64,000 nt of DNA, from NCBI RefSeq assembly GCF_000230735.2, contig NC_019962.1, positions 3,348,001-3,412,000 of the forward strand, written 5' to 3'. How positions within the stretch are numbered: position 1 is the first letter of the stretch; each line of letters begins with the position of its first letter. Shown here one piece after another: positions 5,225-5,862 of this stretch. The translations under genes and the position numbers were made by a program. This DNA is from Natrinema pellirubrum DSM 15624. Its GTDB lineage: Archaea > Halobacteriota > Halobacteria > Halobacteriales > Natrialbaceae. The notes under the pieces were generated by a model. That model had not been told where the DNA came from. It was given only the letters and a program-made list of their open reading frames with translations, and searched no databases.

Positions 5225-5862
5225 TGGGTGAGAGGAGTAAGCCCCCTTCTGTTCGGCCCGGCATTCGGCTGAGCGTCCACGCCGTCCGCGGCGGTGCCGC
5301 GGGGCGTTCGGGCTACCACGGCGCGGACTTGCACCGGTGAGGGTTCGCCGTTCCATCGCTCCTCGGCCGTCGGTGTGCGGTCGATCACGACGTTCGCGGT
5401 TCTCGCGCCGAGGGCGCTCCGAACCGCGCTCGTGACCCGTGGATTCGAACCACGGTTTGACGACCGCACACGGCTCGCGGCGTCCGCCGCTCGCCCGTTC
5501 GGCGGTTCCCACCGCCTCACGTAACGTGGGCGCAAAGCGCCCACGCGTTCCCTCTGCGGGTCAACTCCCCTTCCTCTCGGTCGGGTTCGCACGCGTCATG
5601 GGTCGGGCCGAGACGTGTCGTTTCTGTTCCAGAGCCAGCGGTCTCCCGCTCCGGACTTGCGTCCGGTCACCTGCCCGAACAGGTGGGGGGACTTTCCTCG
5701 CGAGCGTGATGCGTCCCGAAGGGACGGATCACGTTATGAGCGTTGCGCGTCCTGGAGGGACGGGCAACGGTAGAGCGCGGGGCACCCCGGAGGGGCGGCC
5801 CGCACTAGGTGGCCGCGCCGTTGCCGGTGCGACCATCGCGGCGGCCGGGCTCTCTCTCCCAC
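5225..5862 (-). ncRNA. rnpB: RNase P RNA (catalytic RNA of ribonuclease P), expanded
   Basis: The RNA that removes 5' leaders from tRNA precursors. On the minus strand it carries the universal CR-I block GAGGAAAGTCC (near 5688-5698), a CR-IV-like segment GGTGCAAGTCCGCGCC (near 5320-5336) and the CR-V block ACAGAAGGGGGCTTA (near 5238-5252). P1 is supported by TGGGAGAGAGAG (5850-5861) pairing with CTCTCACCCA at the 3' end (5225-5237) with one mismatch. A TATA-like box sits 25 bp upstream of the inferred 5' end. The ~638-nt length is well above the roughly 300-480 nt I expect for archaeal relatives; the excess lies between P1 and CR-I, where three similar hairpins occur in tandem. Ends are approximate. 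Confidence 0.88.

Follow-up and report, generated by a model that had tools for sequence, protein, structure and literature searches.

RNase P RNA is the catalytic RNA that trims tRNAs. In the haloarchaeal family Natrialbaceae its P3 arm is, by folding prediction, a branched domain: a short closing stem bears one constant helix A, capped by a GNRA loop, and between one and five hairpin modules in tandem. As defined by its sequence pattern, the module belongs to the RNase P gene alone, and modules are frequently gained, lost and reordered, and occasionally flipped, between closely related species. The gene from which this was recognised lies on the minus strand of the window, that is, the whole stretch of 64,000 nucleotides that was analysed (Natrinema pellirubrum DSM 15624, contig NC_019962.1, positions 3,348,001–3,412,000). 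Neither the variation in the number of modules nor the restriction of the array to Natrialbaceae is visible from the window alone.

Location and limits of the RNase P RNA gene

The RNA encoded in the window is an archaeal RNase P RNA by CR-I, CR-V and the pairing of P1 and P2, all of which are present (Table 1). The match to the archaeal model RF00373 covers positions 5235–5732 of the minus strand (model positions 1–288 of 288, E = 8.4e-22, 80.4 bits). This score is slightly under the gathering cut-off of 84 bits, because the long P3 exceeds what the model can span; the cut-off is a curation threshold, so that missing it is not taken as a biological failure, and it is reached in 27 of the 29 genomes of the genus.

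Table 1. Elements of the RNase P RNA gene in the window, with positions counted from its first letter.
Feature	Position	Strand	Basis
RNase P RNA gene (archaeal), P1 to P1′, about 636 nt	5227–5862	minus	RF00373 match; P1 pairing for the limits
Promoter-like stretch with CTTATTC (TATA-like), about 28 nt upstream of P1	5880–5899	minus	conservation in genus loci; putative function
P1 5′ strand GTGGGAGAGAG; partner within 5226–5240	5852–5862	minus	pairing; GGGAGAGAGAG in 29/29 genus loci
P2 5′ strand GCCCGGC; partner GCCGGGC at 5256–5262	5844–5850	minus	pairing
P3 closing stem, 5′ side CCGCG; partner TCGCG before/into CR-I	5837–5841	minus	fold; CCGCG...CGC family-wide
Helix A of the P3 junction, GCAA (GNRA) loop	5808–5837	minus	fold; GNRA kept across loci
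Module 1, GC-rich hairpin, C.C mismatch	5774–5806	minus	fold, repeat; close relatives have a GTGAT/GTGAG-type module there
Module 2, GTTGC/GCAAC type, C.C mismatch	5741–5769	minus	fold, repeat
Module 3, GTGAT/ATCAC type, C.C mismatch, CUUCG loop	5705–5733	minus	fold, repeat
CR-I GAGGAAAGTCC (P4 5′ strand)	5689–5699	minus	RF00373 match
CR-V ACAGAAGGGGGCTTA and P1 3′ strand CTCCTCTCACCC	5226–5252	minus	RF00373 match, P1 pairing

The preliminary description of this DNA had assigned the hairpins to the RNase P RNA, between P1 and CR-I, and had named a model 5′ end near 5700 as the outcome that would put them outside it. The model does return an archaeal RNase P, and its 5′ end at 5732 lies, taken literally, at about that point; but as judged from the sequence this end is a misplacement caused by the array, and the array is inside the RNA. 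The model start falls within the hairpin nearest to CR-I, because RF00373 cannot bridge the long P3. The strands of P1 (5852–5862 with CTCCTCTCACCC in 5226–5240) and of P2 pair with each other beyond the array, and since P1 and P2 enclose the array, the hairpins lie inside the RNA of the gene. The distance from P1 to P1′ of about 636 nt agrees with the length of about 638 nt given before. Both CTTATTC, about 28 nt before P1, and the P1 motif are found in 29 of 29 genus loci. In 8 of these 29 loci RF00373 itself lets the RNA begin at P1, ahead of the module, and according to the model offsets the eight are seven of the eight one-module loci and one two-module locus. The possibility that the hairpins are situated outside the RNase P RNA is therefore rejected, on the P1/P2 partners beyond the array, the upstream CTTATTC and the one-module loci which reach P1.

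In family genomes generally, a long array leaves the RF00373 score close to the gathering cut-off or under it and displaces the predicted 5′ end, in the window by 130 nt; for this reason the RNase P RNA genes of this family are probably annotated in truncated form. The arrays thus explain why the standard model gives near-cut-off scores and misplaced 5′ ends for these genes.

Structure of the P3 arm

Four hairpins, namely helix A and modules 1–3, are predicted between P2 and CR-I, held by a short closing stem that in the window is CGCGA/TCGCG. The closing-stem pattern CCGCG...CGC is conserved throughout the family, and the GNRA loop is present on helix A in 110 of the 113 loci with this domain (at least two P3 hairpins; genus g2 excluded). 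Modules 1–3 form a direct repeat with a period of 35–36 nt (36 and 35 from start to start), and their common layout is an outer stem of at least 6 pairs, a C.C mismatch, an inner stem of about 5 pairs and a small loop. The 181-nt P3 stretch folds better than 200 of 200 dinucleotide shuffles (z = −3.84).

The two hairpins first described, at 5705–5733 and 5741–5769, keep their coordinates, while their size is corrected: each is 29 nt, not 29 bp. The earlier observation of like inner stems with three exchanged outer pairs was accurate, the RNA strand reading CGUGAU.C.CGUCC-loop-GGACG.C.AUCACG in one and CGUUGC.C.CGUCC-loop-GGACG.C.GCAACG in the other. The interruption reported as G opposite G is so on the plus strand; in the RNA, which is read from the minus strand, it is a C.C mismatch. 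The third, related GC-rich hairpin is indeed present, at 5774–5806, with the same arrangement of outer stem, C.C and inner stem. The fourth helix of the domain (5808–5837), with its GCAA loop of the GNRA type, had been overlooked.

Covariation and restriction of the module to RNase P

Among 39 distinct modules, 97.0% of the cells are standard-paired, versus 25–42% when the partner is slid. In this set both sides change in 8 of 11 pairs, and there are 96 double-change cells against 31.3 in shuffles; the sequences are related, and the shuffles therefore overstate the evidence, while the slid controls retain the relatedness. Together with the fold of the array, which beats its shuffles, these values uphold the earlier proposal of a folded RNA with compensating changes. 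When 107 distinct modules are taken, 10 of the 11 pairs are 94–100% paired and one is 88% paired; the mismatch position is paired in 22% and is C.C in 62 of the 107. These module statistics refer to hairpins with a 29-nt core of the required form, 96 of 238 hairpins being left out.

A degenerate pattern of the 29-nt module has one match in the genome of the window, at the RNase P gene. In the 29 genomes of the genus, 34 of 34 matches are in RNase P, and in 125 genomes of the family 83 of 83 coincide with the RNase P match or lie no more than about 110 nt from it (coordinates compared by eye). The 296 genomes of other families of the order gave one match, which lies on a contig other than that of RNase P and lacks the full paired form. 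The reversed control pattern had no match in the genus, family and other-family genome scans.

Distribution in the family and steps in length

RF00373 matches were obtained in 29 of 29 genus genomes, 123 of 125 family genomes and 388 of 392 sampled genomes of the order. For the family, 122 of the 123 RNase P loci, from 29 genera of Natrialbaceae, were parsed with P3 delimited from the P1 motif; L100 is cut by its contig end. A P2/P3 pattern retrieved 38 named records, and in 37 of them the P3 stretch is identical to that of one of the family loci, by which the family is identified as Natrialbaceae and the genus as Natrinema. Helix A with one to five modules was found in 108 of the 122 loci, and at least two modules in 66; the rest comprise 8 loci with a plain P3, 5 (genus g11) with another, larger expansion, and 1 with an unrelated two-hairpin P3. 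These numbers come from folding with a 45-nt span, which counts hairpins rather than proven homologues; in L058 the fold missed helix A, and its modules were corrected by eye from 2 to 3. In the family loci the distance between P2 and CR-I grows in steps of 35.7 nt per hairpin (genus g11 and loci under 60 nt were left out of this test). In the outgroup P3 is short and plain, with 10–57 nt from P2 to CR-I in 22 of 33 loci, those correctly delimited; the outgroup sample consists of the 29 best-scoring and 12 hand-picked loci, is not random, and includes 8 without a recognisable CR-I.

The five loci of genus g11 (L101, L102, L106, L150 and L152) have a P3 of 162–287 nt with 4–9 hairpins, mostly of other types, and the RNA of L152, about 825 nt, is the longest in this survey. 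Another case is L052 (G079, genus g16), which is without helix A and modules; four genus mates have both, and the whole domain can therefore be lost.

Turnover of modules between species

In Natrinema (29 species), 1, 2, 3 and 4 modules occur in 8, 8, 8 and 5 species, respectively, and at least 14 changes of copy number are required on the RPA gene tree. This parsimony value of 14 compares with 16.4 for shuffled labels, and a value as low appears in 17 of 200 shuffles. That is to say, since 14 changes are close to the shuffled 16.4, copy number is only weakly inherited on the gene tree, and the tree offers little power for dating the events.

By the RPA gene, the sister of the window's species is Natrinema thermotolerans (98% identical), which has 2 modules versus 3, with 99% identity in the compared core segments of the RNA. 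Core segments are 98–99% identical in most of the ten pairs compared, yet the arrays differ; in G026/G027 and G072/G073 core identity is only 80–83%, partly from the ungapped comparison. Module 1 of the window differs in type from the module that comes first in its three closest relatives. The order of the modules also changes: G007 and G008 have the same three module types in rotated order, and G020 and G023 have similar types in a different order. A flipped module, on the strand opposite to the gene, is found in three genomes (G039, G051 and G104), and in G051 and G104 it matches a normal module at 29 of 29 nt after reversal; flipping turns C.C into G.G and alters the loop, and the stems are preserved. 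Identical 29-nt modules occur in up to five genera, and module 3 of the window is identical at 29 of 29 nt to modules in three other genomes. Such identity across genera could come from lateral transfer or interspecies recombination, or from retention.

Divergence between neighbouring modules

The modules of one array differ from each other, and the differences bear on folding. In 23 arrays of at least three modules, the mean predicted hairpin probability is 0.93 for the native sequences versus 0.28 when all modules are made identical. Compared with random mixtures of modules, natural arrays reach 0.907 versus 0.845 and are higher in 19 of 25 arrays (Wilcoxon p = 0.007), and the same outer triplet recurs within one array in only 3 of 74 pairs, where 9.66 are expected (P = 0.005); the arrays are not independent, and their relatedness weakens both of the latter tests. 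All of these folding predictions leave aside co-transcriptional folding, high salt and proteins. Descent from an ancestor with many modules could also make neighbours unlike, and may explain part of the effect. Concerted evolution, by which the copies of one array should be more alike, is rejected: the opposite was found, neighbours being unlike each other. The arrays of L028 (0.38) and L078 (0.60) have near-identical modules, as expected of recent duplications; they are predicted to misfold and exist nevertheless.

Origin and possible function of the array

The explanation that we consider probable is that recombination duplicates and deletes modules at a peripheral, tolerant site in P3, that compensatory changes then make the copies diverge while each hairpin stays self-paired, and that the array is a structural spacer. 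Modules would be duplicated and deleted through unequal recombination or slippage within the array, and the copies would afterwards diverge by paired substitutions, since selection would favour hairpins that stay separate and palindromic neighbours of identical sequence would cross-pair instead of self-pairing. Added modules would be tolerated because the tip of P3 lies at the periphery, as rRNA expansion segments do. The array most probably serves as a structural spacer whose sequence has no specific task; against a pure spacer stands the C.C mismatch, whose retention in 62 of 107 distinct modules is not expected of one.

A bolder version, which we hold to be doubtful, is an array of recombining hairpin cassettes within an essential ribozyme, in which units are duplicated, deleted, rotated and flipped from one sister species to the next, selection keeps them mutually non-complementary ('negative design'), and the number of units is an evolvable dial on RNase P size, salt tolerance or assembly.

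It is unlikely that whole RNase P genes or pieces of the array were moved between species by homologous recombination instead of being duplicated and lost in place. The identical modules in up to five genera, which stand at different positions, speak for such movement, as does the likeness of the window's module 1 to the single module of G011; sisters, however, share 98–99% of the core segments and differ within the array, and any exchange would therefore need to be very local.

With regard to function, protein binding is the main rival of the spacer. In this reading, which we rate as rather improbable, each module would be bound by a protein, an RNase P subunit such as Rpp30 or Pop5 or another partner, that reads the hairpin together with its C.C, and valency or RNP assembly would depend on the number of modules. 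A cryo-EM report on the holoenzyme of Methanocaldococcus jannaschii places Pop5 at the P2/P3 junction and has Rpp30 touching P2–P3 (PMC6565675); by analogy, the array would extend from the arm contacted by these two proteins. The C.C is moreover kept, as counted above, while its flanking pairs vary. Set against this, flipped modules with G.G in place of C.C persist, copy number ranges from 0 to 5 inside one family, the loop sequence of the module is variable, and L052 has lost the entire domain.

In other RNAs, very long insertions are in some cases cut out. If the array were likewise transcribed and then removed, the mature RNase P RNA would be in two pieces or array-free; this is very improbable, as the helix stems covary as though retained. 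Least credible of all are copies of a dispersed palindromic repeat (REP- or MITE-like) landing repeatedly in this gene, for although the modules are short tandem palindromes with identical copies across genera, such a repeat needs many genomic sites, and with 34 of 34 genus and 83 of 83 family matches in RNase P and none elsewhere in the window's genome (as far as the degenerate 29-nt pattern reaches) it is largely refuted.

Relation to known systems

Tandem repeats within the cyanobacterial RNase P RNA gene (rnpB) were reportedly described by Vioque in 1997. STRR units in bacteria are generally short and of heptamer type, they have counterparts among the intergenic repeats of the genome, and their copies vary between relatives. 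Both they and the array are tandem repeats in an RNase P RNA gene which lengthen a peripheral helix. The array is nevertheless not of the STRR type: its unit is a whole hairpin of 35–36 nt with internal covariation in the archaeal P3 arm, and the module pattern matches nowhere else in the genome.

With the RNAs represented by RF00373, the RNA of the window has the core, CR-I, CR-V, P1, P2 and the S domain in common; P3, unlike in that model, is replaced by helix A and one to five modules, and a long array takes the score to or below the gathering cut-off.

Growth of RNase P RNA by expansion segments is proposed in an accretion model (PMC12974513). The likeness to what is described there lies in lineage-specific peripheral helices around a core that is kept; the difference is that those segments are inferred over deep time, whereas units of the array are gained and lost between sister species. 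RNA enzymes and rRNAs are thought to grow by surface helices, which is almost always inferred across very long times, and the array makes the same growth step visible at the species level, within an RNA that is essential and among species with 98–99% identical cores. Its dozens of natural variants permit direct tests of how added helices are tolerated, what they cost and by which rules they fold. The arrays are also natural material for studying how palindromic helices that are repeated escape cross-pairing.

The P3 of eukaryotic RNase P and MRP has the form helix–internal loop–helix. It is enlarged, as in Natrialbaceae; unlike it, the P3 of Natrialbaceae is in the predicted fold a multibranched junction of repeated, separate hairpins and not two helices around a large internal loop, so that a P3 domain of the eukaryotic type is rejected. 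The eukaryotic domain binds the Pop6/Pop7 pair (PMC2858038).

What is already known comprises tandem repeats in RNase P RNA and growth by expansion segments; what the present case adds is the variable-copy hairpin array in the haloarchaeal P3. The literature search, whose reach did not extend to the classic comparative papers on archaeal RNase P RNA, returned no report on haloarchaeal P3 hairpin arrays. Natronobacterium gregoryi was presumably contained in the old RNase P database, and L052 may be that species; the plain P3 of L052 would then explain why the array went unnoticed.

P12 region of the same RNA

A hairpin resembling the T-arm of tRNA (CCGTG GTTCGAATC CACGG) is located at 5437–5455 of the minus strand, in an insert of the P12 region. 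The strict T-loop hairpin, whose stems vary, is found in 14 genera (53 of 123 family loci), and the relaxed form in 68 of 123 loci; it occurs in 0 of 33 outgroup loci and in about none of the composition shuffles. It may represent a tertiary T-loop motif, or else imitate the T-arm of the substrate. Modularity like that of P3 may extend to the S domain. Also in the P12 region, a hairpin at 5392–5431 of the minus strand of the window is present in L028 as well, and through it the core of L028 exceeds that of L027 by 36 nt.
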